The notes under the pieces: generated by a model
What the model saw: the letters and a program-made list of their open reading frames with translations, nothing else
What the model was told of the DNA's origin: nothing
The model's database searches: none
Made by a program: the position numbers and the translations under genes
From: an uncultured Bacteroidota bacterium
Lineage (GTDB): Bacteria > Bacteroidota > Bacteroidia > Bacteroidales > VadinHA17
Direction of reading: 5' to 3'
Length of the DNA: 64,000 nt
Assembly: GCA_903824785.1 (NCBI GenBank)
Contig: CAIJYD010000002.1
Location: 1-64,000 of the forward strand
Part shown: piece by piece, positions 17,261 through 63,738 of the stretch
Layout: every line of letters begins with the position of its first letter
Numbering within the stretch: the first letter of the stretch is position 1

Positions 17261-18540
17261 TGAATAGCCTGAAAAGAAAACAGCCACCGGTTTTCGCGGT
17301 TGAAAAGGTAGTTATTCCGGAAGCCGGATTCGTTAAACTGAATAATGGAGTGCCTGTGTTCTGCATTGAAGCAGGAACGGAAGATATAATGCGGCTTGAG
17401 TTTGTATTCCGGGCAGGACAGGTAAAAGAGCCTCTGCCCCTTGTTTCCTCCTCAACTAATATGATGCTTACAGAAGGGTCGCAGAATTACAGCTCCGAAG
17501 AGCTCAACAGATTGCTTGATTTCTACGGAGTTTTTCAAAACTCGTCAGCAAGCAAAGATAATGGAGGAGTTGTTTTCTTTTTTCTGAATAAACATATTGA
17601 GAAAGTGCTGGAACTCAGCCGGGAGATTTTGTTTCGGCCTGTTTTTCCTGAAGAAGAACTCCGGTCGCTGATGAATAAAAGGCTTCAATGGTATCTTGTA
17701 AACAGGGAGAAAGTTCAGAATATCGCAACGGATAACTTTTTTCAATCTGTTTTTGGAAAGGATCATCCATATGGCCGCAATGTGGCCGAAGTTGATTTCG
17801 AAGCCATTAATACTGCCCTTGTAACTGATTTTCACTCAAAGCATTATACGTCTGAAAATATGACTATTATAATATCAGGCAGAATTCATGAAAAAACTAC
17901 TGAGCTTCTTAATACATATTTTGGCGAACCCATTTCAAAGAAAACAGATACCGCAGGTCCGGTGAAAAACCTCAGAGGAGAAACAGGTAAGAAACTGCAT
18001 ACAGATAAACCGGGTGCTGTTCAGTCTGCAATCAGGATAGGGTCTCCTACAATAAACAAGCGTCATCCGGATTATCCGGCACTGAAGATCCTGGATTCTG
18101 TTCTGGGGGGGTATTTTGGCTCCAGACTAATGAAAAACATCCGCGAGGAAAAAGGTTACACTTACGGAATAAGCTCCTCGGTTTCGTCTCTAGATCTTTC
18201 AGGATTCAAATTGATTTCAACCGAAGTAGGGCAGAAAAACCTGCAAAAATCTATCGATGAAATATATAAAGAGATAAGACTTCTCCAGAATGTTCCTGTC
18301 GGGAAAGAAGAGATGAAGGTGGTTCGCAACTATATGTCGGGAGAAATGGTAAGGATGTTCGACGGGCCTTTTGCCCTTGCTGAAAGTTTTAAGGCAGTAT
18401 GGGAATTCGGACTCGACAACAGCTACTATCACACTCTGGCGGAAAAAATTAAAACTATTGAGCCGGATGAAATAACTGAGATAGCCCGGACGTATTATAA
18501 TATCGACGATCTTTATGAAATCACTGTTGGTTCTGAATGA
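17260..18540 (+). CDS. M16 peptidase, non-catalytic partner subunit
   Basis: A 426-residue M16-family protein without HxxEH at the expected place (the corresponding region reads SSSTNMMLTEGSQNY). It keeps the C-terminal-half signature with the Arg/Tyr pair, GGYFGSRLMKNIREEKGYTYG, which in M16 enzymes binds substrate. It overlaps the catalytic subunit by one base and the next gene by four (ATGA), which supports a tightly coupled set. Role as an inactive half of a heterodimer is inferred from family knowledge. Confidence 0.93.
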   Translation: MNSLKRKQPPVFAVEKVVIPEAGFVKLNNGVPVFCIEAGTEDIMRLEFVFRAGQVKEPLPLVSSSTNMMLTEGSQNYSSEELNRLLDFYGVFQNSSASKDNGGVVFFFLNKHIEKVLELSREILFRPVFPEEELRSLMNKRLQWYLVNREKVQNIATDNFFQSVFGKDHPYGRNVAEVDFEAINTALVTDFHSKHYTSENMTIIISGRIHEKTTELLNTYFGEPISKKTDTAGPVKNLRGETGKKLHTDKPGAVQSAIRIGSPTINKRHPDYPALKILDSVLGGYFGSRLMKNIREEKGYTYGISSSVSSLDLSGFKLISTEVGQKNLQKSIDEIYKEIRLLQNVPVGKEEMKVVRNYMSGEMVRMFDGPFALAESFKAVWEFGLDNSYYHTLAEKIKTIEPDEITEIARTYYNIDDLYEITVGSE

Positions 18541-20021
18541 ATAAAAAGTATTTTAATATTATTCTGTTTTTATTTTGTTCCTGGCCTGTATGCATTATTG
18601 GTCAGATCGATATCCGGAATACAAAACCTGTAATGAAACTGGTTTCAGTTCAGCCTGCAACCGGATTTACCGAAATAAGCTGGGAGTCAGTGCCTTCTTC
18701 AGCTGTTGCCGGCTACAGGGCACTATATTATGATTCAGGCTCCAGAGGGTTTTTCCGGTTCCAGACCTTGTCGGATCCCTCCATATTGAATTGTATCGAT
18801 TACTCCCGCATCGCAACACATTCCAGTCAGACTTATGCAATTGAAGCAATAGATGCCGCAGATAATTTCGGAAAACTCTCTGAAAGCCTGAGTACAATAT
18901 TTTCGGTAGTGAAAGCCGATACCTGCAACAAAAAAATTACCATTTCATGGAATAAAGCTTTCTCTTCCCCGAAGAAAGTTACTGGCTATTCCATTATGAT
19001 GCGTTCCAATGCTGGCAGTTTCAGACTTGCAGGGGATGTAAGCCCCAATGATACCAGCTTTACTTTAAGCGATTTTACAACCGATTCTTATTATTGTTTC
19101 TATATTAAGGCAAACCTTGAAGGAGGAACCTTTTCCACCTCAAATGAAGCTTGTCTGACAACCACTATGCAGAGGCCTCCCGATTGGATTAATGCCGATT
19201 ATGCTACTGTAAATCCGGATAACAAAATCGATCTCTCCTTTACTTTCGATCCATTCTCTGAAATCAAACAATTCAGGATGGAAAGAAGAAGAGGTTTATC
19301 AGGTCAGTTCAAAGAGATAGGAAAACCTGTTTCCTCAAGTGGGTCTGTCCTGTTTACTGATATAAAACCTAGTACCGATACAGTTTATTATTACAGGCTT
19401 TCAGCAATAAACAACTGCGGTATTCCAATTACTGTATCAAACACATCCTCAAATATTGTCGTATCACTCAACAGAACCGGAGATGATCTTAACCTCTTGT
19501 GGAACAGCTATAAAAACTGGAATGGAATTATCTCTTCCTACAACGTATTTATCAACACAGGAAATGGCTTTGAGGAAAAAGCAGCGCTGCTGGCTATTGA
19601 TACTACCTTTGTCGTTGGCTATAAGGATATTATGTACAGAGTAACAGGTAATGAAGTCTGCTTTTACATAACTGCATCTGAAAATTCCAATCCTCATGGG
19701 ATCTCAGGACAAAGCCGTTCAGCAACAGTTTGTACAGCTTCAACAGAGGTAATAACAGTCCCAAATGTTTTTACACCGAATAACGACCTTTTAAATGATT
19801 TGTTCAGGCCGGTATTATCTTTTACACCACTCGATTATCATTTAATAATCAGTAACAGGCAGGGAAAAACTCTGTTTGAAACAAGAGATTTTCTGGCTGA
19901 ATGGGATGGTTTTCAAAACGGCGACCCTCAGCCACAGGGGGTCTGCTTATGGTTTCTAAAGGTCACAACTCCTTCCGGAAAGAGTATTACCAGAACCGGA
20001 ACAATCACAATTATTAAATAG
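18537..20021 (+). CDS. Secreted protein with type IX (type B) sorting domain
   Basis: A 494-residue exported protein: signal peptide (about 1-22), several fibronectin-III-like beta modules (for example TEISWESVPSSAVAGYRALY and NKKITISWNKAF), and a C-terminal gliding-motility-type domain with the hallmark VPNVFTPNNDLLNDLFRP, then LIISNRQGKTLFE and a WDG turn. That domain is the type B signal for export through the type IX secretion system. It shares ATGA with the upstream M16 subunit, an odd partner for a cytoplasmic peptidase pair. Ligand and function are unknown. Confidence 0.9.
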   Translation: MNKKYFNIILFLFCSWPVCIIGQIDIRNTKPVMKLVSVQPATGFTEISWESVPSSAVAGYRALYYDSGSRGFFRFQTLSDPSILNCIDYSRIATHSSQTYAIEAIDAADNFGKLSESLSTIFSVVKADTCNKKITISWNKAFSSPKKVTGYSIMMRSNAGSFRLAGDVSPNDTSFTLSDFTTDSYYCFYIKANLEGGTFSTSNEACLTTTMQRPPDWINADYATVNPDNKIDLSFTFDPFSEIKQFRMERRRGLSGQFKEIGKPVSSSGSVLFTDIKPSTDTVYYYRLSAINNCGIPITVSNTSSNIVVSLNRTGDDLNLLWNSYKNWNGIISSYNVFINTGNGFEEKAALLAIDTTFVVGYKDIMYRVTGNEVCFYITASENSNPHGISGQSRSATVCTASTEVITVPNVFTPNNDLLNDLFRPVLSFTPLDYHLIISNRQGKTLFETRDFLAEWDGFQNGDPQPQGVCLWFLKVTTPSGKSITRTGTITIIK

Positions 20022-37745: not shown

Positions 37746-38918
37746 ATGAAAATTATATATTACGATTGTTTTTCCGGAATTAGTGGAGATATGAATCTGG
37801 GCGCTATGATCGATCTGGGCGTTGATAAAAAATATCTTACTGATGAACTTGATAAGCTTAACCTCAAAGGGTGGGAACTTATTGCGGTAAAGGATCAGCG
37901 GCATGGAATAAGCGGAATAAAAGTTACTGTCAAGCAGACGCGGCATGAGCATGCCCACAGACACCTTTCAGACATTGAAAAGATTGTAAATAATTCAACT
38001 CTCGACAATAAAACGAAGGAATTAAGCATGAAAATCTTCATGAAGATTGCGGTTGCGGAAGCCCTGGTACATGGGATCTCGATCGACCGTGTTCATTTTC
38101 ATGAAGTTGGCGCCATCGATTCAATTATTGATGTTGTAGGCGCTGCCATATGCTATAATAAACTGAATGTTGACGGCGTACATGTGTCAACTGTAGAGCT
38201 CGGAAGCGGGTTTGTAAAATGCGACCATGGGAAACTACCAGTTCCTGCACCTGCAACTGTTGAGATAATTAAAGGTATTCCTGTAAAAAAAGGAGGCGTG
38301 GACTTTGAAGCTATAACCCCGACAGGAGCTGCAATCCTGGCCGCTCTGGGAACTGATTTCAGTCCTGATCTCCGCATTAAAATAGAAAAAACAGCTTACG
38401 GTGTAGGTCAGAAAGATCCTCACGATGTGCCTAACCTGTTAAGAGTATTCCTCGGTGAAACTGTTTCAGATTCAGATTCAGGTCACGATGCGCTTCTGCT
38501 TGAATGTAACATCGATGATATGAATCCAGAGTTTTTCGAATATATATCCGACAGACTTTTCAAGGCAGGCGCATCTGATGTCTTCTATTCAAATATTATG
38601 ATGAAAAAGGGAAGACCCGGGATTATGCTCAGTGTTATCTGCGAAAATGAACTGGCTGATGTTGTAAAAAACATTATTTTTTCTGAGTCCACTTCACTAG
38701 GCATCAGAACATTCCCTTTCAGGAAGGATACTCTGGTGCGAAAATTCGAAACCCTTAAAACTGTTTATGGAGATGTTACCGTTAAAAGGTCATTTCATAA
38801 AGAGAAAGAGGTTTCGTGCAAACCCGAATATGACCAGTGCAGGCAGATAGCAGCAGAAAAAGGAATTCCTGTAAAAGAGGTGTATAATAATATAATGGCA
38901 TCAATCATTAATCACTGA
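37746..38918 (+). CDS. larC: Nickel-pincer cofactor nickel insertase LarC
   Basis: LarC inserts nickel into the pincer cofactor in a CTP-dependent step. The 390 residues start with YYDCFSGISGDMNLGAMIDLG and include the His-rich TRHEHAHRHLSDIEKIV, VHFHEVGAIDSIIDVVGAA, PTGAAILAAL, and the C-terminal half with LLECNIDDMNPEFFEY and MKKGRPGIMLSVIC. In Lactobacillus plantarum the protein is split as larC1/larC2 and joined by ribosomal frameshifting; here it is one continuous frame. It is the first gene of a larC-larE-larB operon. Confidence 0.96.
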   Translation: MKIIYYDCFSGISGDMNLGAMIDLGVDKKYLTDELDKLNLKGWELIAVKDQRHGISGIKVTVKQTRHEHAHRHLSDIEKIVNNSTLDNKTKELSMKIFMKIAVAEALVHGISIDRVHFHEVGAIDSIIDVVGAAICYNKLNVDGVHVSTVELGSGFVKCDHGKLPVPAPATVEIIKGIPVKKGGVDFEAITPTGAAILAALGTDFSPDLRIKIEKTAYGVGQKDPHDVPNLLRVFLGETVSDSDSGHDALLLECNIDDMNPEFFEYISDRLFKAGASDVFYSNIMMKKGRPGIMLSVICENELADVVKNIIFSESTSLGIRTFPFRKDTLVRKFETLKTVYGDVTVKRSFHKEKEVSCKPEYDQCRQIAAEKGIPVKEVYNNIMASIINH

Positions 38919-38956
38919 GATAAACTTAAAAAAGGTATAAAAACAATAACAATCAG

Positions 38957-39760
38957 ATGACAGATACTAAATCGGCAAAATTAAATTCCATTCTCAAAGA
39001 ATTAGATTCATTTGTTGTTGCATTTTCAGGAGGCGTTGACAGCTCTTTCCTCTTATACCGTGCTCATAATGTAAGAAAATCAAATATAATAGCTGTCACT
39101 ATAAGGACGCCATATATTCCTGCCCGCGAAATAAATGAAGCAATTGAGTTTACCAAAACCTATGGAATAACCCATAAAATTCTGGATATCGAGTTCCCGG
39201 AGCTGATACGGACTAACCCCATTGAAAGATGCTATCTCTGTAAAAAAACTCTTTTCCGCGAATTACTGAACTTTGCAAAGGAAAATAATTACAGATATAT
39301 TATCGACGGAACAAACCATGATGACACCAGGGATTTCAGGCCGGGGATGAAAGCTTTGAAGGAAATGGGAATAAGAAGCCCGCTTTTGGAGGCTGGCCTT
39401 ACAAAAAAAGATATAAGGGAATTGTCTAGGAGTGATGATCTGGCTATATGGGATAAACCGGCAATGGCTTGCCTACTGACAAGAATTCCCTACGATACAG
39501 AGATATTGGCAGGTACTCTCAGAATGGTGGAACAGGCTGAAAACATGCTGTTTGAAAATGGCTATCCGGGTACAAGAGTAAGAGTACACGGAGATGTTGC
39601 AAGAATTGAGTGCCTTCCTGGCTATATTGAGAAGATTATTCATGATCCCGACAAAGAACATATCATAACCAATCTGAAAAAAATAGGATTCAGATACGTA
39701 TCTTTGGACCTTGAAGGTTACAGAACAGGTAGTTCAAACCCTGAAATGAAAGAATTATGA
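38957..39760 (+). CDS. larE: Sacrificial sulfur transferase LarE
   Basis: LarE gives sulfur to the pyridinium precursor of the nickel-pincer cofactor. The 267 residues have the PP-loop FSGGVDSSFLLYR, the ERCYLCKKTLF block, and WDKPAMACLLTRIPYDTEI. The Cys at residue 172 in that last block matches the sacrificial Cys of Lactobacillus LarE, so this is probably the single-Cys, self-consuming type rather than the cluster type. Its end overlaps larB by four bases (ATGA). Confidence 0.95.
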   Translation: MTDTKSAKLNSILKELDSFVVAFSGGVDSSFLLYRAHNVRKSNIIAVTIRTPYIPAREINEAIEFTKTYGITHKILDIEFPELIRTNPIERCYLCKKTLFRELLNFAKENNYRYIIDGTNHDDTRDFRPGMKALKEMGIRSPLLEAGLTKKDIRELSRSDDLAIWDKPAMACLLTRIPYDTEILAGTLRMVEQAENMLFENGYPGTRVRVHGDVARIECLPGYIEKIIHDPDKEHIITNLKKIGFRYVSLDLEGYRTGSSNPEMKEL

Positions 39761-40506
39761 ATGTAAAGGAAGTTGAAAAACTGCTTATCGAAGTCAGGTC
39801 CGGAGAAACAACCATAGAAAAAGCTCTGGAAGTACTTAAGAATTTCCCATATACCGATCTGGGATTTGCAAGAATCGACCATCACCGTGAAATGCGTACA
39901 GGTTATCCTGAAATAATTTACTGTGCAGGTAAAACTGTCGATCAGGTAAAAGAGATATTCAGGGTAATGTCGGAAAGAGAAAATAATGTCATTGGAACAA
40001 GAGCCAGCCTGGAAATGTATGAAGCAGTGAGAAGTATTATACCGGATGCTGTCCATTACTCAATGGCTAGAATTATCTCAGTCCAGAAGAAAAAACCTGT
40101 TCCGGTCAAGAGCAGAATCGCGATAATAACTGCAGGAACATCAGACATGCCTGTTGCAGAGGAAGCAGCTATCACAGCTGAACTCCTCGGCAATGATGTA
40201 CTGAGAATTTATGATGCAGGTGTAGCCGGAATACACAGGCTGGTTGACAAGTTACCAGATATAAGGAGCTGCAGAGTAGTTGTTGTTATTGCAGGAATGG
40301 AAGGAGCCCTCGCCAGTGTGGTTGGCGGACTTGTAGATAAGCCGGTAATTGCGGTCCCTACCAGCGTCGGATATGGAGCTAATTTCGGAGGCATCTCCGC
40401 CCTGCTTGCAATGCTAACCAGTTGTTCAACAGGAGTTACTGTTGTTAACATTGATAATGGATTCGGAGCCGGATTCTCAGCGAGCATGATTAACAGGATG
40501 GAGTGA
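39757..40506 (+). CDS. larB: Nickel-pincer cofactor carboxylase/hydrolase LarB
   Basis: LarB carboxylates and hydrolyses nicotinic acid adenine dinucleotide, the first step to the pincer cofactor. The 249 residues show the AIR-carboxylase-like C-terminal half: IAIITAGTSDMPVAEEAA, DAGVAGIHRL, VVVIAGMEGALASVVGGLV and AVPTSVGYGANFGGISALLAMLTSC. The N-terminal half has FARIDHHREMRTGYPEIIYC. With larC and larE it completes the known cofactor pathway. Confidence 0.96.
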   Translation: MNVKEVEKLLIEVRSGETTIEKALEVLKNFPYTDLGFARIDHHREMRTGYPEIIYCAGKTVDQVKEIFRVMSERENNVIGTRASLEMYEAVRSIIPDAVHYSMARIISVQKKKPVPVKSRIAIITAGTSDMPVAEEAAITAELLGNDVLRIYDAGVAGIHRLVDKLPDIRSCRVVVVIAGMEGALASVVGGLVDKPVIAVPTSVGYGANFGGISALLAMLTSCSTGVTVVNIDNGFGAGFSASMINRME

Positions 40507-40517
40507 TTCTCTTCAAA

Positions 40518-41123
40518 ATGAGGGAGAAAATACTGATTTCCACAGCCTATTTACCGACTGTTGAATACTTTTCATTAATTGCAAAAGCCGGTGAAGTAAT
40601 CGTAGAGAGAGAGGAGAATTATCTGAAACAAACCTATAGGAACAGATGCTATATCCTTTCAGCCCACGGACCCCAGCTTCTGTCAGTCCCGGTTTACCTT
40701 GGCAGCTTACACAAAACTCCGGTAAAAGATATCCGCATCGATTATTCTAAAAGATGGCAGCAGGTGCATCTGAGGGCAATTACCGCTTCTTATAAATCAT
40801 CGCCCTATTTTGATTATTACTTCGAAGATATTGAAAGAGTTATCTCACAAGACTCTAAATTCCTGTTAGAGCTGAATATGAAACTGACTGAATCTGTTCT
40901 TGAAATACTTAAGATAAATAAACCTGTTTCATATACCACTGTTTTTGAGCCTGTTGAAGATTCAGAAAATGATTTCAGATATAAAATTAAGCCTAAGGCA
41001 GAATCTTGTTTTACTGAAAAGGAGTATATTCAGGTATTTAATAATGGTACCGGATTTGTTCCACGCCTGAGCATTCTCGACCTTATTTTTAATATCGGAC
41101 CAGATGCTGTAAGTTTTCTTTAA
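40518..41123 (+). CDS. WbqC-family protein
   Basis: About 201 residues from the ATG chosen here; a GTG at 40503 that overlaps the larB stop is also in frame. The start KILISTAYLPTVEYFSLIAKAGEVIVE, the YRNRCYILSAHGPQLLSVPV block and DIRIDYSKRWQQVHLRAITASYKSSPYFDYY identify the WbqC family, whose members are found in O-antigen clusters and may act on amino sugars; its biochemistry is poorly known. It directly follows larB, so it may be co-transcribed with the lar genes, although no link in function is evident. Confidence 0.85.
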   Translation: MREKILISTAYLPTVEYFSLIAKAGEVIVEREENYLKQTYRNRCYILSAHGPQLLSVPVYLGSLHKTPVKDIRIDYSKRWQQVHLRAITASYKSSPYFDYYFEDIERVISQDSKFLLELNMKLTESVLEILKINKPVSYTTVFEPVEDSENDFRYKIKPKAESCFTEKEYIQVFNNGTGFVPRLSILDLIFNIGPDAVSFL

Positions 41124-41216
41124 AAGTTATTTCGCTTAAAAAACTCCGAAAGTTGCCAAAACAGATAACAACGAAATCAGACAACCGTTTTCTCCAAAGG
41201 CACTAAAGTCCTAATA

Positions 41217-42704
41217 TCAGAACTTATACCCAACAGTTATTGTGAACATATTTCTCACAGTATTTAAGCTTGCTATTGCCGGATCAAAACTGGTATCAAG
41301 AGCATACAATACATATTTCTGTGTGCTCCTGTAACTTGTGAATGCGAAGTCTATTGAAACATTTTGTTCCCTGTATCCTGCTCCCAAAGAGAATGAGCTG
41401 AAATCAAGATTTTCATTATCCTCTCCCGGTTTGAATGCTTTACCATAATAACCATAACCGGTACGGAGATACAGCTTATCTATTCTGAATTCACCTCCAA
41501 GCCTTATGTTGCTTGCAGATTTCAGGCTGTTCTTGATATTAAGATTCTTCTCACTGTAATCGAAGTTATCCCCTGTCTCTGAAAACCGTGCAATACTATA
41601 ATCAACAAACTCATAATCGGCACTTAACAGAGCGAATTTCTTAACCTGAAATGCGACACCCGTCAATACTCTGAATGGAGTTGTAAGAGCATAGTTATAT
41701 CTTGCTGGATCATTTGAAAATTCATATTTACCACCATCAGTAAAGTTTGAAGTAAGGTTCTCATAGAAATATTCATTTATTCTGTAAAAGGTCGGTGAAT
41801 GAAATGCCAGACCTATCCGCAGTGTTTCGATTGGCTTAATAATTGCACCAATCTTAAGAGAATAACCTGTACCAGTATTTTCAAAATGGTCGGTGTAGGT
41901 AAAGTTCTCAAATTTTGAAGGAAGGTTGGCTGAAGTTGACTCGAGGTGTTCGTAGTTGCTGGTATATTTCAGTTTGCTTATTCCCAGTGTTGCTCCGAAA
42001 TAGATTTTATTCGAATAATTTCCTCCAATAGAGAGAGCATGTTCACCTGTGTAGCCCTCGTTTGAAACGAGTCTTCTTACGGTCTGACCATATTGAGAAG
42101 GCGGGTTATCGCCGTAATTTGAGAAGACAGTTCCATAACTAAGTCTTGAACCCGGAAGCGAATCAATAACATAGGCATCATAAGCCATCCTGGCGTCGGG
42201 CACATTATCCCCGAGCTCATTATTATACCAGCCATTGCTTATTCCTGCCCAGTAGTCTGCCATAGAACTGGTGTTGCTAACACCCTGAATTCTCATACTC
42301 TGACTAAGATTATTGGTTTTATTAAATGAATAACCTATATTGAGTGTTATGAGGCCGGTTTCATTGCTGTTGGAGATAATGTTGCTTACAATACCTACCT
42401 GTCCAAGATTAAAATTGTACAGATAATCGGAAGTAATTCCATTAAAACCTGCCGAGGTATTGATATGGAACAGCTGTGGAGATATGGAGAGTTCTGAAGA
42501 TCTGAAAACGCCCAGACCTGCCGGGTTCTGACTTAATGATGAAAGATCTGCCCCAAGAGCTGTAAAGGCACCACCCATCGACATGAACCTTGCAGTGCCA
42601 CCATAGAATACCTGTGAGTATCTTAATGCATCATCAACATTCTGGGAAAAAACCCCGGAAAGAAGAATGAATGCTGCCAGTATTATTAAACTTATCCGTT
42701 TCAT
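41217..42704 (-). CDS. FadL/OmpP1-like outer-membrane protein
   Basis: A 495-residue protein with a signal peptide (cut after GVFSQ) and the FadL-family N-terminus: GGTARFMSMGGAFTALGADLSSLSQNPAGLG, where the NPA box is diagnostic. The rest is beta-barrel-like and ends in a strand with a terminal Phe (TITVGYKF), as outer-membrane barrels do. FadL-type barrels import hydrophobic compounds; in Bacteroidota related barrels also serve the type IX system (PorV). It lies about 80 bases downstream of the Ser-rich surface protein gene on the same strand, so a shared transcript is possible. Confidence 0.9.
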   Translation of the reverse strand: MKRISLIILAAFILLSGVFSQNVDDALRYSQVFYGGTARFMSMGGAFTALGADLSSLSQNPAGLGVFRSSELSISPQLFHINTSAGFNGITSDYLYNFNLGQVGIVSNIISNSNETGLITLNIGYSFNKTNNLSQSMRIQGVSNTSSMADYWAGISNGWYNNELGDNVPDARMAYDAYVIDSLPGSRLSYGTVFSNYGDNPPSQYGQTVRRLVSNEGYTGEHALSIGGNYSNKIYFGATLGISKLKYTSNYEHLESTSANLPSKFENFTYTDHFENTGTGYSLKIGAIIKPIETLRIGLAFHSPTFYRINEYFYENLTSNFTDGGKYEFSNDPARYNYALTTPFRVLTGVAFQVKKFALLSADYEFVDYSIARFSETGDNFDYSEKNLNIKNSLKSASNIRLGGEFRIDKLYLRTGYGYYGKAFKPGEDNENLDFSSFSLGAGYREQNVSIDFAFTSYRSTQKYVLYALDTSFDPAIASLNTVRNMFTITVGYKF

Positions 42705-42786
42705 ATTTTTTTATTTTTTCAGTAAAACTATCCCTGCACTCTTTAAATGGAATGAACTATTTTGAGAAAAATGAGTGTTATTAAAC

Positions 42787-44187
42787 CTATCTCCTGCCCG
42801 ATGAAGAACCTGATGAAGAACGGGAATCAGAACCTGAGGAACCAGAGGAACCAGAGGAACCTGAAGAACCGGAAGAGCCTGATGATGACCCGGATGAATA
42901 CCCTGAAGAATAGGAACTTCTCGATTCAGAACCGGATGATCTGTTAGAGGAACCGGAGGAATAGCCCGATCCGCTTTCAGAACTTCTTCTTGCCGGAACA
43001 GAATAGTGAACTGCACCGCTGGAAGGAGAAACAGCTCTTCTCTGTTCACTGTTAACAGAAGAATTGTTTCTCGAATTATTTGATGAGTTCTGGTAAGATC
43101 CCTGATTTGAAGGATTTCTGACAGACCCTGAATTATTATATACCCTTGTGTTACCACCGTCACTGTTTCTGTTAATGCCCGAGTTAGCTCCGTCTGATAC
43201 CCTGCTGTTGTTATATGATGGACGTGTGCTCATTCGCGGATTACTGTAACTCGGAGTATATGATCTGTTGGTGGTATTATATTCAGGCCTCATATTGGCT
43301 GACCTCTGTGTTCCGGGATTTGTCTGACTATTTGCTCCTTTTACCGGCTCCTGGTTCAGTTTCCTTCCGGTACTGGTTGCAGGTTGCTGTGAAATGGCAT
43401 CAGATGAAACCGCTCTGCGCTGACCGCCAGAGACTGCAGCAGATTCTGAGGAAGGTCTGCCAGAATTGGCTCCTGTAGAAAGATAACCATCCCTTCGTGC
43501 TGATCCTGAAGGGGAAACATAGCCGTTCCACCTTGACGAGAGGGTACTTGGTCTTTCTTTTCTTCCATATTGAACCGAAGTTTTGGAGTCATTATAGAAA
43601 TAACTTCCTCCGTATCCGCTTCCGTATCCGCCACCGTAATAACCGCCATAATACCCTCCATACATATTTCCGTAATAACCATTGTTATAGAAGTCATAAT
43701 AACCTCCGTAACTGAAAGGATTGTAATAAAATGGATTGTATCTGTTGTAGAAAGGTGAATATCCTCCGAATCCAAAACCATATCCCATCGAAGGGTAGTA
43801 GAAGTCTGAATAGAATGGATCGCTCCAGTAAGGATCAAAATAATTTCCATGAAATCTTCTCAACCTTGATGAATATGAGTAATTATCATAATTATCATAA
43901 CCACCGTTATAGTCGTAGTTATTCAGAACTGCCTGATTATCATAACCTAATGCACCCTGATACTGATCTGAGATAAGGGTATCGGAAGCATAAACATTAT
44001 CATAATAGTTTTCAGTTGGTAAATTTCCCTCTGCAATCTGCTCATTGACAGGCGGGCTGGCTTTAGTTACAGGTTTGTCTGAAGCTAAATAGTAAAGATC
44101 ATCGTACTCTGCTCCTGTATAAAGGCTTGATGAACATGAGCCCAGAGTCAGAAGTAAAAGAACTGATATGTAAGATAATGCTTTCAT
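42787..44187 (-). CDS. Tyr/Gly- and Ser-rich lipoprotein, unknown function
   Basis: No named family is recognised. The 466 residues start with a lipoprotein signal ending in GSC (C18). Residues 90-200 are Tyr-, Gly-, Asn- and Phe-rich (GYGFGFGGYSPFYNRYNPFYY, many YGG repeats), like an adhesive or amyloid-like segment. Residues 200-380 are basic and polar (Arg, Ser, Asn). The last 80 are almost pure Ser/Gly with scattered Arg, ending GRR. The SRLRRFHGNY segment is echoed as SRINRFHKSY in the next gene upstream, so the two look like diverged paralogues. A surface or matrix role is likely; the reverse-strand open frames here are by-products of low complexity. Confidence 0.75.
   Translation of the reverse strand: MKALSYISVLLLLTLGSCSSSLYTGAEYDDLYYLASDKPVTKASPPVNEQIAEGNLPTENYYDNVYASDTLISDQYQGALGYDNQAVLNNYDYNGGYDNYDNYSYSSRLRRFHGNYFDPYWSDPFYSDFYYPSMGYGFGFGGYSPFYNRYNPFYYNPFSYGGYYDFYNNGYYGNMYGGYYGGYYGGGYGSGYGGSYFYNDSKTSVQYGRKERPSTLSSRWNGYVSPSGSARRDGYLSTGANSGRPSSESAAVSGGQRRAVSSDAISQQPATSTGRKLNQEPVKGANSQTNPGTQRSANMRPEYNTTNRSYTPSYSNPRMSTRPSYNNSRVSDGANSGINRNSDGGNTRVYNNSGSVRNPSNQGSYQNSSNNSRNNSSVNSEQRRAVSPSSGAVHYSVPARRSSESGSGYSSGSSNRSSGSESRSSYSSGYSSGSSSGSSGSSGSSGSSGSSGSDSRSSSGSSSGRR
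42830..42883. repeat. Six imperfect 9-base tandem repeats
   Basis: Six units of the form GAACCNGAG-like follow one another (two are identical). On the minus strand they encode the SSG-rich tail of the lipoprotein. Unit length is a multiple of three, so gain or loss of units would change tail length without a frameshift. Confidence 0.85.
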
Positions 44188-44334
44188 TTTTGATATCCTT
44201 TTTTTATACTTATAAGCAAATATTATACCAAAGAAACAAAATTCTGAATTAACTATTTTCAGATTCCTTAAAGATAACCGTTTTATTGATAAGGAACAGA
44301 GAGCTCATGGCTATATTCTTGTTTATTGGCTTTT

Positions 44335-45351
44335 TTACCGCCTCCTGGTTGATTTCTCACTTGAGGAGGATGAAGAAGAAGATTTTGATTCACTTTTTGA
44401 TTCACTTTTCGCTGATCTGCTGCTCTCGCGTACGGCAGATTTTTCTGATCGTGCGGGGGATGACCTTCGGGCAGATGAAGCTGCTGTTCCTGATGGAGTT
44501 GAACTTCTTTCATTACGTGAGACATTGGTTCTTTCGCTGCTGCGGCCGCTGTTTACATTCTGAATCCGGTTACTGCTCCCCCTGGTTGTCTCAACTGACC
44601 TGCGTGTAGGGGTAGTGTTTGTTTCCCTGATTACAGGAGTGCTGGTACTTCTGTCGGCTTCCCTTCTAAAACTATTTCCTGTTGACGGTTCGGGCTTGAT
44701 ATCGGATCTTCTTCCCGAACTGTTACCTGTTGAAGGATATGTTGTCGAAGAATTTCTTTCTGAAGAGTTTTTATAGCTGCTTCTGCCTGAATTAGATGGC
44801 TGTCTGTAATCGCTGCGATCATTGTAATTGTTATGATTGTTATAATAATTGTTGTAATTATTGTAATTGTTGTGATGATTATTCCCGTTCCATCCGTAGA
44901 ATTCGTTGTGCCACCTGTTTCTTGTTCTGAAAATTACTAAAGGTGTATGCCAGTTATTGAAATAAAAACCGGTATTCCCGAAGTAAAAAGAGTTTTCGAA
45001 ATATGGATTATAAAACCTGTCATTCCCGTAATAATAGCTGTAAGATGGGTAGCTGAAAGAAAATCCGAGCCCAATGCCTCCTCCATAAATACTTATTCCC
45101 CATGAATCGGGCTGATAATTATACCAATATGCATCTGTAAATACAGGTGAATAATAACTGAAGGCTGAATAAGATTTATGAAACCTGTTTATCCGGGATG
45201 AAAAATAATAATCATAATCATCGTAATAATTATTTACTATTACCCGCGCCTCATCATTTCTGAACTCCTGCTTTCCGTGAACCTGGGCTTTTACGGTTAA
45301 TCCGGTAAGAAGTATTCCAGTCAGAATTCCGATAGTGTATTTTGCTTTCAT
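44335..45351 (-). CDS. Exported Tyr-rich/Ser-rich protein, paralogue of the next gene
   Basis: Not a recognised family. The 338 residues begin with a signal peptide (cut after TVKAQ), then a Tyr/Phe/Gly-rich region (about 50-165) with FSSRINRFHKSY, GGGIGLGFSFSYPSYSYYYG and Asn/Tyr runs (HHNNYNNYNNYYNNHNNY). A Ser/Arg/Thr-rich tail follows, ending in a poly-Ser stretch and TRRR. Composition, order of regions and the SR-RFH motif match the downstream lipoprotein, so a duplication followed by divergence is likely. This copy lacks the lipobox. A clear AGGAGG lies six bases before the ATG, unusual here. Confidence 0.75.
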   Translation of the reverse strand: MKAKYTIGILTGILLTGLTVKAQVHGKQEFRNDEARVIVNNYYDDYDYYFSSRINRFHKSYSAFSYYSPVFTDAYWYNYQPDSWGISIYGGGIGLGFSFSYPSYSYYYGNDRFYNPYFENSFYFGNTGFYFNNWHTPLVIFRTRNRWHNEFYGWNGNNHHNNYNNYNNYYNNHNNYNDRSDYRQPSNSGRSSYKNSSERNSSTTYPSTGNSSGRRSDIKPEPSTGNSFRREADRSTSTPVIRETNTTPTRRSVETTRGSSNRIQNVNSGRSSERTNVSRNERSSTPSGTAASSARRSSPARSEKSAVRESSRSAKSESKSESKSSSSSSSSEKSTRRR

Positions 45352-45357
45352 GATAAA

Positions 45358-45363
45358 CCTCCT
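45358..45363 (-). promoter_or_regulatory. Strong Shine-Dalgarno site
   Basis: On the minus strand the sequence reads AGGAGG with a six-base spacer to the ATG at 45351-45349. Nearly all other genes in the window lack such a site, as is usual for Bacteroidota, so this one stands out and fixes the start. Confidence 0.75.
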
Positions 45364-45396
45364 TTTCTTTTATTACCGATAACTGAACTTTTTATT

Positions 45397-45404
45397 TATT
45401 TTTG
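45397..45404 (+). promoter_or_regulatory. -7 promoter element for proS
   Basis: TATTTTTG, an exact TAnnTTTG match, 47 bases upstream of the proS ATG. Confidence 0.5.
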
Positions 45405-45451
45405 CGCAATCTATTTCTTTAAATCTAATTAATCAAATACCATACCAAAAA

Positions 45452-46927
45452 ATGGCGAAGTTTTTAACTAACAGGGAAGAAAATTACTCACAATGGTATA
45501 ACGATCTGGTTACCAAGGCCGATCTGGCTGAAAACTCTGCAGTAAGAGGATGCATGATAATTAAACCTTATGGTTATGCAATATGGGAAAAGATTCAGGC
45601 AGAACTCGACAGGCTGTTTAAAGAGACAGGTCACGTTAATGCATATTTCCCATTATTCATTCCAAAATCTTTTTTCAGCAAGGAAGCTGCCCATGTAGAA
45701 GGTTTTGCAAAGGAATGTGCTGTAGTTACTCACTACCGCCTTAAAAATGATGAAAATGGAAAAGGTATTGTAGTTGATCCTGCTGCAAAACTTGAAGAAG
45801 AGCTCATAATCCGCCCCACTTCAGAAACAATTATCTGGCACTCTTATAAAAACTGGATTCAGTCATACAGAGATCTTCCTATTCTGATTAACCAGTGGGC
45901 AAATGTTGTCAGATGGGAAATGCGCACACGTCTGTTCCTGAGAACAACGGAATTCCTCTGGCAGGAGGGTCATACTGCACATGCTACCAGGGAAGAGGCG
46001 ATTGAAGAGACCGAAAAGATGATAAATGTTTATGCCGGTTTTGCAGAAAACTCAATGGCTCTTCCTGTAATAAAAGGATCAAAGTCTGAAAATGAAAGGT
46101 TTGCAGGTGCTCTTGACACATATGCCATTGAAGCTCTCATGCAGGACGGAAAAGCCTTGCAGGCCGGCACCAGCCATTTCCTCGGACAGAATTTTGCCAA
46201 AGCATTCGATGTGCAGTTTACAGACAGAACAGGCAAACTGGATTATGTATGGGCTACCTCATGGGGCGTTTCCACAAGACTTATGGGTGCACTTATTATG
46301 GCCCATTCCGACAACCAGGGACTGGTTCTTCCTCCGAAACTTGCTCCTATACAGGTTGTTATAATTCCGATTTATAAAAACGAAGAACAGCTTGCAGCCC
46401 TCTCTGAAACTGTAAATAAAATTAAAAAGGATCTCGTCGCCCAGGGGATCTCTGTTAAATATGATGACCGTGATAATAATAAGCCGGGATGGAAATTTGC
46501 TGATTATGAACTGAAAGGTGTTCCTGTTCGTCTGGCTATAGGTCAACGCGACCTGGAAAATAAAACAATTGAAGTTGCCCGCCGCGATAATCTCACCAAA
46601 GAGACTATTTCCATTGATTCCGTAAGTGAGCATATTCCAAAACTCCTCGAGGATATACAAACCAACATTTATAATAAAGCACTTAAATTCAGAAAGGAAA
46701 ATACTTATTATGTTGATAAATGGGATGATTTTCTAAAAATTCTGGATAATCAGGGTGGTTTTATTATGGCTCATTGGGATGGAACTGTTGAAACCGAAGA
46801 GAAGATAAAGGAGGAGACAAAAGCAACAATCAGATGCATTCCGTTCGACACCCCTGATGAGGATGGGAAATGTATATACTCCGGGAAACCATCAAAAAGA
46901 AGAGTACTCTTTGCAAGGTCATATTGA
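45452..46927 (+). CDS. proS: Prolyl-tRNA synthetase (archaeal/eukaryote-like type)
   Basis: ProS charges tRNA-Pro. At 491 residues, and without the editing-domain insertion of the bacterial type, it is the shorter archaeal/eukaryote-like form common in Bacteroidota. Class II motifs are seen in [41 protein letters not shown] (motif 2 region), [12 protein letters not shown] and the later [14 protein letters not shown] and [20 protein letters not shown]. The C-terminal anticodon-binding domain and a final Cys-containing domain follow. A terminator lies just after the stop. Confidence 0.97.
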
Positions 46928-46943
46928 TTTTATAAATATTAAG

Positions 46944-46977
46944 AAGGGGGCATTCAACAATATGTCCCTTTTTTTTT
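46944..46977 (+). terminator. Rho-independent terminator after proS
   Basis: A ten-pair stem (AAGGGGGCAT with ATGTCCCTTT, two G-U pairs) with an eight-base loop is followed by a run of nine or so T residues, about 17 bases after the proS stop. Confidence 0.85.
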
Positions 46978-47032
46978 GTCCTGAATTATTACTATTTTAG
47001 ACGCCTGTATATCATTTAATACAACTCTTGTT

Positions 47033-47743
47033 ATGTCCGATCTGAATGAAAAGAAACTGGCAATAATTGGAACTCTTAAAGAAAAATCCATACTTAAGCA
47101 AAAGGTTTTTGATAATACGCTGGAAGCTTTCAGCGGTGTAAAGGAAGTGCTTAAGGGTTTGTCAAAAGATGTAAATACTAATTTGTCGGGGCTGGATGGA
47201 AGAGTGAGACTTGAATATACAGACAGAAGCAATTTTGATGCTCAGATAAAAATCGCCGGCGATATCCTGCTTTTCAGCATGCACTCAAATATCTTTCAGT
47301 TCGACAGGGAGCATCCTGCATGGAAGACGCCCTATATTCAGAAAAATAAGTACAATGCCTACTCCGGGATAATAAATATTTACAATTTTCTCGCCGATTC
47401 TTTTAAATATTCAAGGCTTGATGATCTGGGATACCTCATTGCCAGGATCTTTATCAATCACGAAAAACAATATTTTGTTGAAGGAAAAAGACAGATGGGG
47501 ATGCTCTTTACTAATTATGGAAGTGAAGAGATCAGCAAGGAATCGCTACAGGTAATTATCTCCACCGCAATTCAATATGCTTTAGAGTTTGATCTTCTTG
47601 TTCCTCCGTATGATGCTGTGAAAATTGCAACGGTAGGTCAGGCTGAGACAAAAATCCAGCACTCAAAACTGATTACCGGAAAACGTCTTGGATTCCAGTT
47701 TAATTCCGATGATGTATTGATAAGCAATCCCATGGAAACCTGA
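47033..47743 (+). CDS. Conserved-looking protein of unknown function
   Basis: I do not recognise this 236-residue protein. It has no signal peptide or membrane segment, so it is probably cytoplasmic. It begins with a Lys/Glu-rich helical region (to about residue 55), then a mixed alpha/beta stretch with NFDAQIKIAGDILLFSMHSNIFQF, AYSGIINIYNFLADSFKYSR, LGYLIARIFINHEKQYFVEGKRQMG and VGQAETKIQHSKLITGKRLGF. Its stop overlaps the start of the Omp85-like gene by one base (TGATG), which suggests coordinated expression. Function is unknown. Confidence 0.82.
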   Translation: MSDLNEKKLAIIGTLKEKSILKQKVFDNTLEAFSGVKEVLKGLSKDVNTNLSGLDGRVRLEYTDRSNFDAQIKIAGDILLFSMHSNIFQFDREHPAWKTPYIQKNKYNAYSGIINIYNFLADSFKYSRLDDLGYLIARIFINHEKQYFVEGKRQMGMLFTNYGSEEISKESLQVIISTAIQYALEFDLLVPPYDAVKIATVGQAETKIQHSKLITGKRLGFQFNSDDVLISNPMET

Positions 47744-49683
47744 TGTTAAAGTTTCAAAAAAAATACAGGAGTTCGTTCAGGCCTTTGATCATTCTGGCAC
47801 TTCTGTTTTTTTACAACTTTGCCTATTCTCAAAACCTGCCGGGAAATAACACTTTAATAAGACTTGCACCCTGCACTTCAATTCAGATCAGGAACAGAAT
47901 CTCTTTTTTCCCAAAAGAAACCTTCATTAAACTTCCCTCATCTCTGATACCTGAAAATAAATTCAGGAAAGATAAAGATCTCATTTTCTTTGATTCCCTG
48001 AAGATCAGAGCATCAAAAAAACCACTGACCAAAAAACTTTACGACTTTGTTATTATCTCACCTTCCCCATCCGGCACAAAACAGATAACATCTACAAGCG
48101 ATGCCGGTTACGTCGGTTATTCCGGAAAAACAATCAGAAATATTGAAGTCAGAAGACTTAACGTGTTCGGTGTAAATATTGATAATCCGATTGCATCAAA
48201 TCCTAAAAAATTTGAAGATATTTTAAATAAAACACACGTTAATACAAATGAGAATATTATAAGGAAGAATCTTCTTTTCACAAAAGGCGATACAATCTCT
48301 CCACTTACATTAAGTGATAATGAAAGAATTTTAAGGAATCTTTCATTTATTAACGATGCAAGAATAATTATTGTTCCGGTTTCGGATTATGAGGCTGATA
48401 TTGTTGTTCTCACAAAAGATGTTTATTCATTAGGCGGCGCATACAGTTACAAGGGGCTTAAAAAAGGTGCCGTTTCTCTCTTTGAAAAAAATGTTTTAGG
48501 GATTGGTCATGAAATTGGGTTTGTAATGCCTTTTGATGCTGACTCAGCCGGTTCTCCCGGGTTTGGTGCTCATTACCTTATCAATAATATCAGGAAATCA
48601 TTCATTAACCTGAATCTCTTTTACTTTAACGGACTTGGAACTGAATCCTACGGCATCAGCCTGAACAGGAGTCTTGTAAGTGCAACTACAAAGTATGCTG
48701 GGGGATTCTCTTTCAGACAAGTATCTACCACAGAAGATCTTGATACTCTGCCTGTTCCCGAACCGCTTAAATACAATTTGCAGGATTACTGGCTGTCACG
48801 CTCTTTTTTGCTGAATAAGGAAGCAGTATCAAGAATTATTATCGGAGTACGTTATACCAACAATAATGTATTTGACCGGCCATTTATCCTGCCCGATTCT
48901 TATTATTCTCTTCAGAAATACAAGATATTGCTGGGCTCTGCAGCGTTTTCAATCCAGAAATATTACAAGACCAATCTTATATACAGTTATGGACGAACTG
49001 AAGATATTCCTTACGGAGGATTAGTTAAAATTACTGCCGGAAGAGAGATAAATGAATTCAGGAACCGTACATACCTCGGAGCAGAGATTGCATTGGGTAA
49101 GTCAATAAAATCTCTTGGCTATTTCTATACCTCTGCAGGGCTTTCCGCCTTTAGCAGCACCAACGGGACAGAGCAGGGGATCTTGTCGTTAAGCACAAAA
49201 TATTTTTCAAACCTGATTACGGCCGGAAATAAAATGATGCGTAATTTTGTATATATCAATTATACCCGTGGCTTTGACAGGCACACCGATGAGTTTCTGA
49301 GATTTACTAAGGATAATGGCTTTTCCGGTATCCGGAACGATACTGTAAGCGGAACACAAAGAGTGGAGTTAAGTCTTGAATCGGTAATATTCAGCCTATT
49401 TAATCTATATGGCTTCCGGTTTGCATTCTTCGGTTTCACCGATATTTCCTTCCTTTCGGGTACAAATGAGATCATCAAAAACGGCTATGCACTTTCAGGT
49501 ATCGGGCTGGGATTCAGAGTCAGAAACGATAATATGGTCTTTAATACATTACAGATCCGAATTGGTTTCTTTCCCAATCCTCCAACTTATTCAAAAATCA
49601 ATTCAATTCTTATCTCAGGAGAACAATTACTGAGTCCCGAAAATTTTGATTCAGGTCCTCCGTCAATAATTCCATACAGGTAA
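47743..49683 (+). CDS. Omp85-like outer-membrane protein with POTRA-type region
   Basis: A 646-residue protein with a signal peptide (cut after FAYSQ). About residues 130-220 look like POTRA modules: RNIEVRRLNVFGVNI, LLFTKGDTISPLTLSDNERILRNLSFINDARIIIVPV and VVLTKDVYSLGG. The remaining 400 residues alternate as in a 16-strand barrel, with FEKNVLGIGHEIGFVMPFDADS near the start of the barrel. It belongs broadly with BamA/TamA-type proteins, but no exact family is recognised, and the end (IPYR) lacks the terminal aromatic. It could be the TamA-side partner of the TamB homologue, or a dedicated exporter linked to its upstream neighbour. Confidence 0.8.
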   Translation: MLKFQKKYRSSFRPLIILALLFFYNFAYSQNLPGNNTLIRLAPCTSIQIRNRISFFPKETFIKLPSSLIPENKFRKDKDLIFFDSLKIRASKKPLTKKLYDFVIISPSPSGTKQITSTSDAGYVGYSGKTIRNIEVRRLNVFGVNIDNPIASNPKKFEDILNKTHVNTNENIIRKNLLFTKGDTISPLTLSDNERILRNLSFINDARIIIVPVSDYEADIVVLTKDVYSLGGAYSYKGLKKGAVSLFEKNVLGIGHEIGFVMPFDADSAGSPGFGAHYLINNIRKSFINLNLFYFNGLGTESYGISLNRSLVSATTKYAGGFSFRQVSTTEDLDTLPVPEPLKYNLQDYWLSRSFLLNKEAVSRIIIGVRYTNNNVFDRPFILPDSYYSLQKYKILLGSAAFSIQKYYKTNLIYSYGRTEDIPYGGLVKITAGREINEFRNRTYLGAEIALGKSIKSLGYFYTSAGLSAFSSTNGTEQGILSLSTKYFSNLITAGNKMMRNFVYINYTRGFDRHTDEFLRFTKDNGFSGIRNDTVSGTQRVELSLESVIFSLFNLYGFRFAFFGFTDISFLSGTNEIIKNGYALSGIGLGFRVRNDNMVFNTLQIRIGFFPNPPTYSKINSILISGEQLLSPENFDSGPPSIIPYR

Positions 49684-61104: not shown

Positions 61105-63738
61105 TCATTTTGTTTCCTGAATATTCAACTTTGCATTTTCTTCAGTAATAACATGAACAAAGCCCGACAGATGGAAATGCTCCAACCCCGAGATCCGTCT
61201 TTCATACACGTCGCACTGATAAAAATAGACTCCCGGGGAAACAATTTTTCCTTTATATGTCCCATCCCAGTTGATTCTGGGTTCTTCAGTACTGAAAAGC
61301 AATAATCCGTTCCTGTTAAAAATACTGAAATCAATCTTATCAACAAGCCCTGAGGTTTTTGCAACCAGTCTGTCATTTATATCATCACCGTTTGGAGTAA
61401 AAACATTGGGGATCTCATAAAAGTTGCAGGAATCGATACAGATCATCAGCGACTTCACGCTTTCATTTCCAAATAGATCAACCGATGAAATTGCATAGCA
61501 TCCTGCAATAATATCATCAGGCTGATTAAGCCAGTGCTTGTAAGAAAAGAGATTTTTGTCATTAATTGTTGCGAGGAGGGCAAGAGTTTCTTCAGATGTC
61601 TTTTTATAATAAATCTTGTAACCAGAAATATCTTCAAAACAAAGAGGATCGGTTAGTGACCAGGAGATTGTATTATAAAGGCTATCGCATTTGCTTGTTA
61701 CATTTATCAGAGGAGGGCACGGAGGTTCATTATCAACAGGCGTTGTAAAGACAATCTCAGAGAGGTTCGTCAGATTCTTTGGCATGTTATCGGCAAGGTA
61801 GCCACCGGATGACCTGACATAATAGTGATACTGCAAACCATTTTCAAGGACGGCATCAGTAAACGCCAGCTGATTTGTAGACCCTACGGAATCATACAAC
61901 ATTGTTTTTTCATTAAGCCTGAAAAAATCGTACCTGTTATTAATCCACGGAACATTGCGGCTTATAGTAAACCGGGCTTTCCTGTCACCGGGGCTGACAG
62001 CCAGAAACAGAGATGAACCGAACGCAGGCTCTCCTATGAGGAATCTGTTTCCTGGTGCATTATTCCAAAGCTCAATCTTATAAATATAACCTCTTGACTG
62101 AGTGTTGATTAATGTATCAACGAGTATTGTATCGTTCAGATCAGCAGTAATAATCGATTTAATCTGCAGATAGTTCGTACCTCCCACTCCATCCGCTCTG
62201 GAAATAATATATTCATAAGGTCCATTTGCCGGAATTGTATCGAGTTTGTCGGGTTTCTTCCAGGAAATATAGATCGACCCTTTAACGGCATCTGTATTCC
62301 TGACGCTGACATTTTTAATAACAGGCACGCCTGAGACAAGCGTCGAAGTGATTTCATTCGAGGCTTTGCTTTCAGTTCCGTTGGGATATACAGAAACAAT
62401 TCTATAAGTATATTCCTTTCCGAACTGCAATCCTTGTCCATTATCAGAATCTGAATATGAAACAGCTGAGCTGCCATCGACATAACCAACTTTTTCAAAG
62501 CCGGTTGATGCGGGTATTCCTGAAGTACAGGAATCAGGTACGAAAGTGGTTGGTCCTTCCCTTCTGTAAATACTAAACCCTGAAATCACAGTGGTTCCAT
62601 ATCCTGACCAGGTAAGCCTGATCAGCTTGCCCTCCGGCACAGCATTTTTTATTGCAGGTGAGGGGCCAAGAACCTTGATTTTCATGTTATCAATATCCGA
62701 AAGCTTAAGCTCGTGGTTATAGTCATCGGATTTAAAGATGATATTATACGGCTGATTTCGCACAGCCTCATGACACGGGATCCATCTGAAACGTGATGAT
62801 GCATAACCTGCAACCGAATCAACTTTAGTAAAACGGGCAGGACAGTTAACAAGGCTGAATACCCCCGAAGTTGCTTTGAGGGTTAAGCTGTCTAAATTGG
62901 CATCAGTTGCAGTAAAGAGAAAGTCAACAGTATCACCCACTTCAGCGCAATAATCAGAAAGAGGGCCGTTTACGGGAGGTTTATTATTTGTATTGTAAAC
63001 ATCAATTTGCATGTCACGTTCAACTGATCCTATTTTTTTACCATTTCGCCACTCCTGAATCTCCATTGCCACATTAAATGTTCCGGTATCAGCAGGGGTA
63101 TCCCAGATAAGGTCCCCGGTTATCGGATCAACAGTAATTGATTTTGTTGCAGGAGGCAGGGTATAGTTCTCAATAGGTTTGCCATCTTCCCGTGTGCAAA
63201 CTGTAAGCACATATGAAAGACTGTCGCCATCCGGATCGAATGCTGCAGGATTATGAATAAACACATAGCCAAATGCTGCTTTATCATAAGGAGGGTTAAG
63301 CAGAACAGGAGTGCTGTTGCGTCCCATTGCGGCATTAACAATCAGAATTGTGGACATTGAAAAAACCACATTCACTGAATTCGGAATATTTTTAACTCCT
63401 GCATTCCTGTTCGGATCCTGAACCACAATCTTGTACACTCCCGGTCCAGGATAAGTATGAATTAATTTATAAACATTTCTTCTGTAAAAATTTGGAAGGG
63501 AAAGGATGCTTACTCTCGGAGCTGTTGAAATTGTATTGTCGCCCCATTCAACATCAAGAGTTTGTCTGTCTGCAAAACTTAATGAATAGGTAAAGGTCGT
63601 AATGGTAATCTCATAAGTGAGGTCAGACAACTGAACATATGTAATCTCCCCTGCTCTGTTATGTGTTGCATTCAGGGTAATAAAACAGAATGAAACTAAA
63701 ACCAGCAAAAAGAATTTTCTCAATAAATGATTTTTCAC
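61105..63738 (-). CDS. Large secreted protein with type IX (type B) sorting domain
   Basis: An 877-residue exported protein. A signal peptide (about 1-24) is followed by PKD/cadherin-like modules (THNRAGEITYVQLSDLTYEI, GDSLSYVLTV, VGDTVDFLFTATDAN), several fibronectin-III-like repeats (IRLTWSGYGTTVISGFSIYR, KGSIYISWKKPDK), and the C-terminal gliding-motility-type domain with YEIPNVFTPNGDDINDRL, IFNRNGLLLF and WDGTYKGK. That domain directs type IX export and surface attachment. It shares this architecture with the 494-residue protein at 18537. A role in adhesion or motility is plausible, but not shown. Confidence 0.92.
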   Translation of the reverse strand: MKNHLLRKFFLLVLVSFCFITLNATHNRAGEITYVQLSDLTYEITITTFTYSLSFADRQTLDVEWGDNTISTAPRVSILSLPNFYRRNVYKLIHTYPGPGVYKIVVQDPNRNAGVKNIPNSVNVVFSMSTILIVNAAMGRNSTPVLLNPPYDKAAFGYVFIHNPAAFDPDGDSLSYVLTVCTREDGKPIENYTLPPATKSITVDPITGDLIWDTPADTGTFNVAMEIQEWRNGKKIGSVERDMQIDVYNTNNKPPVNGPLSDYCAEVGDTVDFLFTATDANLDSLTLKATSGVFSLVNCPARFTKVDSVAGYASSRFRWIPCHEAVRNQPYNIIFKSDDYNHELKLSDIDNMKIKVLGPSPAIKNAVPEGKLIRLTWSGYGTTVISGFSIYRREGPTTFVPDSCTSGIPASTGFEKVGYVDGSSAVSYSDSDNGQGLQFGKEYTYRIVSVYPNGTESKASNEITSTLVSGVPVIKNVSVRNTDAVKGSIYISWKKPDKLDTIPANGPYEYIISRADGVGGTNYLQIKSIITADLNDTILVDTLINTQSRGYIYKIELWNNAPGNRFLIGEPAFGSSLFLAVSPGDRKARFTISRNVPWINNRYDFFRLNEKTMLYDSVGSTNQLAFTDAVLENGLQYHYYVRSSGGYLADNMPKNLTNLSEIVFTTPVDNEPPCPPLINVTSKCDSLYNTISWSLTDPLCFEDISGYKIYYKKTSEETLALLATINDKNLFSYKHWLNQPDDIIAGCYAISSVDLFGNESVKSLMICIDSCNFYEIPNVFTPNGDDINDRLVAKTSGLVDKIDFSIFNRNGLLLFSTEEPRINWDGTYKGKIVSPGVYFYQCDVYERRISGLEHFHLSGFVHVITEENAKLNIQETK

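Follow-up and report, generated by a model that had tools for sequence, protein, structure and literature searches.

In the 64,000-nt window analyzed here (positions 1 to 64,000 of contig CAIJYD010000002.1, from an uncultured bacterium of the Bacteroidales lineage VadinHA17), two adjacent minus-strand genes encode proteins A and B, members of a conserved family, designated family X, whose genes lie constantly beside that of a predicted FadL-fold outer-membrane barrel in the order, named-genome and phylum samples studied. This pairing across the phylum sample is the main point of the work, and goes beyond what an initial annotation made from the window alone could see. A and B are real genes under purifying selection rather than drifting sequence, and the data suggest that family X and the barrel form an undescribed two-part outer-membrane system in Bacteroidota. 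The initial annotation had described two neighboring genes of common plan, a lipoprotein and a non-lipoprotein, next to a FadL-like barrel; both open reading frames (ORFs) were present as described, and the barrel, which follows A on the same strand, matched PF03349 with an E-value of 7e-12. The genes of the locus are as follows.

41217..42704, minus strand: outer-membrane barrel of FadL fold, whose gene is paired with that of X (PF03349; predicted model with a predicted local distance difference test score, pLDDT, of 82)
42787..44187, minus strand: protein A, lipoprotein of family X, 466 aa (ORF; lipobox LGS/C)
44335..45351, minus strand: protein B, family X, 338 aa, with a Sec signal and without a lipobox (ORF)
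45452..46927, plus strand: proS (proline-tRNA ligase; TIGR00408), divergent neighbor, given as context and probably outside the system

An N-terminal profile of family X matched 136 of the 198 genomes of the order. In all 20 order regions taken from other genera, X is the gene directly upstream of the barrel, with both on one strand. A barrel match was present in 23 genomes of other genera, of which these regions represent 20 (G036, G044, and G046 were left out), and six of the X genes had no profile match. The same arrangement was found in named genomes at 75/75 loci with room for it, of which 65 passed a strict tail rule and the remaining 10 were recognized by eye, one following a frame check. 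That scan covered the 80 best loci, chiefly from Bacteroidales but with some under a Flavobacteriales label; five that lay too near a contig end were dropped. For the phylum sample, 40 regions were drawn from its 80 barrel-bearing genomes, and X was recognized by eye upstream of the barrel in 39 of them. At L244, L258, and L260 a second lipoprotein gene separates X from the barrel. The interposed protein carries a CxxCH (heme c-like) motif and an Arg-rich end at L244:3831-4379 and L258:3620-4297, both outside the window's class; L258 gave only weak family matches, cytochrome c profiles among them, and L244 gave none.

The median gap between X and the barrel was 80 nt (64 loci), so that the two are probably co-transcribed; in the window, the short gaps of 147 nt between B and A and 82 nt between A and the barrel, calculated from the coordinates, are compatible with a single transcript. 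A promoter and terminator scan of the locus returned fewer sites than shuffled sequences did and no use was made of it, and an Rfam search of positions 41000-47000 found nothing. The proS gene adjoins the pair in 12 of the 20 order regions (L142, one of the other eight, lacks the upstream stretch), and since it varies while the X–barrel pair persists, it is probably a bystander.

Neither A nor B matched Pfam, NCBIfam, or PHROG. When 22 family X members were compared with named families, three families were each matched by one member, with E-values of only 0.006-0.013, and a PDB sequence search with X gave two weak matches, ActH and GCN5. No description of the X–barrel pair was found in the open-access literature searched, which omits most subscription papers. 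The earlier opinion that these proteins have no described function thus agrees with our searches, and that of their being a good candidate for new biology is supported.

A homologue search of the 36 genomes of the genus, the window's own included, returned relatives of A in 35 and of B in 28, one of the B matches spanning only 37 residues. The ratio of nonsynonymous to synonymous substitution rates (dN/dS) was 0.14-0.32 for A in eight close pairs and 0.15-0.28 for B in seven of eight, the eighth being saturated; the pairs have sequences in common and so are not independent. The relatives found, together with these ratios, rule out the concern that the genes have drifted or are without homologues.

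Compared directly, A and B aligned in low-complexity sequence only (E 0.026). Their kinship is drawn from the position that they share and from single-copy relatives joining A-like and B-like segments, in that L028 and L029, from other families of the order, each combine a lipobox, DDVYY, the motif SSRIRRF/SARLRRF, an aromatic block, and a Ser tail ending in RR. Of the 75 named loci, 8 counted as tandem under a rule for X-like genes, each with at least 49% barrel identity to the window, but the rule may miss cases, as L144, L145, L147, L148, and L152 (54-66% barrel identity) were unscored; each of 20 order regions from other families contained one X gene. We infer that A and B probably arose by duplication within the window's lineage.

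The predicted FadL-fold barrel beside X

The barrel scored 44.9 bits with PF03349 against a gathering cut-off of 29.7, and 40.4 bits in another run. It was found in 58 of 60 related genomes (24 of 25 genera), and at E<=1e-15 in 80 of 118 phylum genomes. The AlphaFold model aligned with Escherichia coli FadL (3pgs_A) at a VIA Z score of 34.1 and a root-mean-square deviation of 3.7 over 366 residues, with BamG at a Z of 31-32.5, and with PorV at a Z of 26. A mark of BamG is an N-terminal tail of ~10 extra residues passing through the lateral opening; on the model, the alignments with BamG and PorV begin from residue 23 and those with FadL from residue 27 or later. The barrel therefore shares with the FadL/OmpP1/TodX family both the Pfam match above cut-off and the predicted fold, but differs from FadL in having only ~14% identity over the fold alignment. 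To our knowledge, no operon lipoprotein partner of FadL has been described. Comparison with PHROGs gave one weak match, and comparison with a viral fold library gave generic porin-like matches.

The top Foldseek match of the model was the BamG chain of Bacteroides thetaiotaomicron (9hiv_F), BamG being a FadL-fold, essential subunit of the β-barrel assembly machinery (BAM) of Bacteroidota according to the accessible text of two papers from 2025, PMC12578637 and PMC12611786. Structure alone could not decide whether the barrel is BamG, and this identity was rejected on sequence. A profile of 21 order-wide orthologues detected TbuX at 8e-8, a FadL homologue at 7e-6, and PorV at a weak 0.07 among PDB sequences, but no BamG chain of 9hiv, 9hjm, or 9n2d at E<=10. 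As a control, the own-genome BamA matched 9hj3, 9hiv, 9n2d, and 9hjm in the same set; only BamA chains were matched, and the presence of BamG chains follows from the stated contents of the set. In every listed phylum genome the best match of the barrel profile was at or below 8e-33, compared with the threshold of 1e-15. Since the profile misses the BamG chains yet reaches the phylum orthologues, the barrel is, as judged by profile, a FadL-fold family distinct from BamG. With PorV of type 9 secretion, the barrel shares a weak NF033709 match (E 4e-6, 26.8 bits) but falls well short of the curated 90-bit cut-off, and another own-genome gene, L297, reads by eye as PorV. The own genome also has a further PF03349 gene, L122, with which phmmer found nothing in the PDB.

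At 1e-15, 38 phylum genomes were without the barrel, and in the 20 of them that were listed we looked for FMO, a protein of green sulfur bacteria. Fourteen of these 20 were positive vs. none of five barrel-bearing controls; the six negatives were G254, G258, G272, G274, G290, and G330, two of which belong to the window's class. Chlorobiota are without BamG, BamH, SusCD, and SprA according to the accessible text of PMC12611786, and the likeness of the two gaps is suggestive only.

Layout, anchoring, and composition of family X proteins

A and B are laid out alike, with a signal, an SR-RFH motif (SSRLRRFH from residue 106 in A, SSRINRFH at residues 51-58 in B), an aromatic/Gly-rich stretch, an Arg/Ser region, and a Ser tail ending in GRR in A and RRR in B. 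By eye, the lipobox LGSC occupies residues 15-18 of A, with Cys 18 as the anchor, while the Sec signal of B ends in KAQ. The marked segments are listed below, all on the minus strand.

44119..44136, minus strand: lipid-anchor Cys of A and next residues (CSSSLY), without an acidic surface-export signal
44089..44109, minus strand: EYDDLYY of A, close to the anchor and, among N-terminal motifs of family X, the most conserved
43975..43983, minus strand: DTL of A, residues 69-71, candidate O-glycosylation motif, in 28/28 own-genus A proteins examined
43852..43872, minus strand: SSRLRRF of A, the opening seven residues of its SR-RFH motif
42790..42804, minus strand: C-terminal SSGRR of A
45178..45201, minus strand: SSRINRFH motif of B
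45079..45156, minus strand: conserved aromatic block of B, YYSPVFTDAYWYNYQPDSWGISIYGG
44338..44352, minus strand: C-terminal STRRR of B

The Ser/Gly tail of A is encoded by short tandem repeats of 9-24 nt at 42805-42882, so its length may change by slippage.

A set of 127 X proteins was assembled, from which L177, L172, L179, and L208 (partial) were left out, as well as, among the 40 phylum regions, L225 (no X) and L237, L241, and L256, where X is in a different frame or contains an N run. A simple pattern found a lipobox in 105 of the 127 (~113 by eye), while ~12 had a Sec signal only and two were unclear; some members being without a lipobox, a lipid anchor is not required. Outside the window's class, the lipobox often begins with GCYTQ. 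Under the surface-lipoprotein rule given in the accessible text of PMC12578637, at least two acidic residues stand among the first six after the Cys. This signal was present in 0 of the 105 X lipoproteins, and in A the Cys is followed by SSSLYT, with no acidic residue. The absence of the signal places family X, by prediction, on the periplasmic side, against the surface location that the initial annotation had assumed.

Composition and tail statistics were determined on 121 non-redundant proteins, six of the 127 being removed as redundant. Charge per residue rose by thirds from -0.08 to +0.06 and +0.12. The first third is acidic and contains 18% Tyr, and the last is Arg/Ser-rich with 32% Ser. 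The last residue was Arg or Lys in 102 of 121 proteins, whereas shuffling of the final 30-60 residues gave 17-19, and at most 34 among 2000 shuffles. Both of the final two residues were basic in 76 of 121, compared with 2.5-2.8 after shuffling. The basic C-terminus is not random, and its frequency far above that of the shuffles indicates that the Arg tip is a selected feature. The AlphaFold prediction for A had a mean pLDDT of 42.5 (52 aligned sequences) with no fold past the signal helix, and A is predicted to be intrinsically disordered.

The Ser tails had also been proposed to be glycosylated. An Asp-Ser/Thr-hydrophobic motif occurred once in the C-terminal thirds of the 121 proteins vs. 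12.5 times in shuffles, and 72 times in the N-terminal thirds vs. 51 (maximum 71 in 200 shuffles); A has a single one, DTL at residue 69, outside the tail, and B has none. Glycosylation of the Ser tails by the system that uses this motif is thus unlikely from their sequence, while glycosylation of another kind may occur. Taken as a whole, the initial interpretation is partly supported.

Possible roles of the X–barrel pair

Pairs of a barrel and a lipoprotein perform much of the distinctive outer-membrane work of Bacteroidota, including nutrient uptake, BAM, and type 9 secretion, and are a known kind; a pair with a disordered, Arg-tipped partner is new to the open-access literature searched. 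RcsF is a lipoprotein with a disordered part that works with an outer-membrane barrel, but it senses stress and has a folded domain. BamG and BamH are a FadL-fold barrel and a lipoprotein that work together; like them, the present barrel is widespread in the phylum, and it is missing from the green sulfur bacteria tested. In contrast to A, which is predicted to be disordered and has no surface signal, BamH is a folded surface lipoprotein, and the locus numbers of bamG and bamH are far apart, as stated in the accessible text of PMC12578637 and PMC12611786. The present pair is spread across the phylum sample, and its second protein, without a Pfam or NCBIfam name, is predicted to be disordered and has a selected Arg tip; if true, the partnership brings an outer-membrane function of this major phylum of gut and marine bacteria within reach of direct tests.

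The reading that we favor, to which about an even chance is given with its docking and arm steps included, is that A and B are duplicated family X members, exported and disordered, that serve one FadL-fold barrel. A would be held by its lipid anchor, most likely at the outer membrane's inner leaflet, and B would be soluble in the periplasm. The acidic DDxYY segment of an anchored X protein would dock at or under the barrel, and the Tyr/Gly/Asn-rich segment, being flexible, sticky, and multivalent, could make contact with the barrel or with cargo. The Arg/Ser arm, cationic and ending in a conserved Arg pair, would extend to and bind an acidic partner, for which the barrel rim, peptidoglycan, the lipopolysaccharide core, and cargo are candidates.

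Several points weigh against this reading. The evidence for binding of X to the barrel is indirect, being gene adjacency, which could reflect co-regulation alone, and among the 40 phylum regions there is one, L225, in which no X accompanies the barrel. A low pLDDT may equally mean a poor model, and the disorder prediction covers A alone. Neither the anchor nor the tip is universal, as B and ~12 of the 127 members are without a lipobox and in 19 of 121 the last residue is not basic. The surface-signal rule derives from other lipoproteins and may fail in some classes. Further, B was not found in 8 of the 36 own-genus genomes, two of which are 97-98% complete.

The lipid anchor with its predicted periplasmic side, the long arm predicted to be disordered, and the charge gradient with its conserved basic end would also suit a tether or spacer, having the lipid end in the outer membrane and the Arg arm on peptidoglycan or another acidic envelope layer, with the barrel merely co-regulated. 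We consider this unlikely, since the barrel remains beside X as other neighbors change, beyond what co-regulation needs, and since members without a lipobox would be unable to tether through a lipid.

A place for X and the barrel within a polysaccharide or exopolymer export route is rather improbable. It is brought up by a small YjbH/GfcD-like barrel: of the 27 phylum genomes with this small barrel, 22 encode it at most 5 kb from the FadL-fold one. However, all 27 matches are outside the window's class and none is in the own genome, the likeness spans ~100 of 658 profile positions, and the window barrel has the predicted fold of FadL, not of a polymer exporter. The small barrel itself is a weak PF06082 match (E 4e-7), above cut-off in one of four tested; examples of this conserved barrel are L243:2506-3276 and L260:1628-2389.

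Very doubtful is also the proposal that X proteins are surface adhesins or fibre-formers, which would act outside the cell by self-assembly of the aromatic/Gly-rich stretch and carry glycosylated Ser tails. The richness of X in Tyr, Gly, Asn, and Ser and the predicted disorder of A would agree with it, but none of the 105 lipoproteins scored has the surface signal, the C-terminal thirds hold far fewer copies of the known O-glycosylation motif than shuffles do, as given above, and a steady pairing with one barrel across the phylum sample is unlike variable adhesins.

A long shot is that X and the barrel constitute a machine moving lipoproteins, or other lipid-bearing cargo, to the outer leaflet, in which a lateral opening of the barrel would pass the acyl chains and X would be a flexible receptor arm in the periplasm. 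The surface-lipoprotein flippase of Bacteroidota is called unresolved and probably essential in the accessible text of PMC12578637. Of the 20 barrel-less genomes listed, 14 are green sulfur bacteria, which are without SusCD and SprA as well (accessible text of PMC12611786), and six are not.

Scarcely credible, finally, is that the barrel is BamG and X an accessory BAM lipoprotein: the first Foldseek match, the wide distribution of the barrel, and the 14 green sulfur bacteria among the 20 listed barrel-less genomes, Chlorobiota being without BamG and BamH (accessible text of PMC12611786), speak for it, but the barrel profile finds TbuX at 8e-8 and no BamG chain, the VIA fold scores are slightly higher for FadL than for BamG, and X is not named among the BAM subunits in the accessible text of PMC12578637 and PMC12611786.

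We also considered and rejected the idea that X serves as a ligand for EL3, a Tyr-rich BamA loop described in the accessible text of PMC12578637. The own-genome BamA (L263) has no such stretch as judged by eye and not by alignment, so the idea is not general.

Other genes of the window

A 646 aa protein encoded at 47743-49683 has a partial, weak match to BamA (TIGR03303, E 1e-6, ~100 positions), and may be a BamA/TamA-type barrel. Two proteins encoded at 18537-20021 and 61105-63738 have NVFTPN... ends, which we take to be type B sorting domains of type 9 secretion. A bacterial serpin-like protein with a lipoprotein signal was recognized by eye at 1083-2330. At 37746-40506 lie genes that read as LarC, LarE, and LarB of the nickel-pincer cofactor pathway, LarB identified by NCBIfam and the others by eye.

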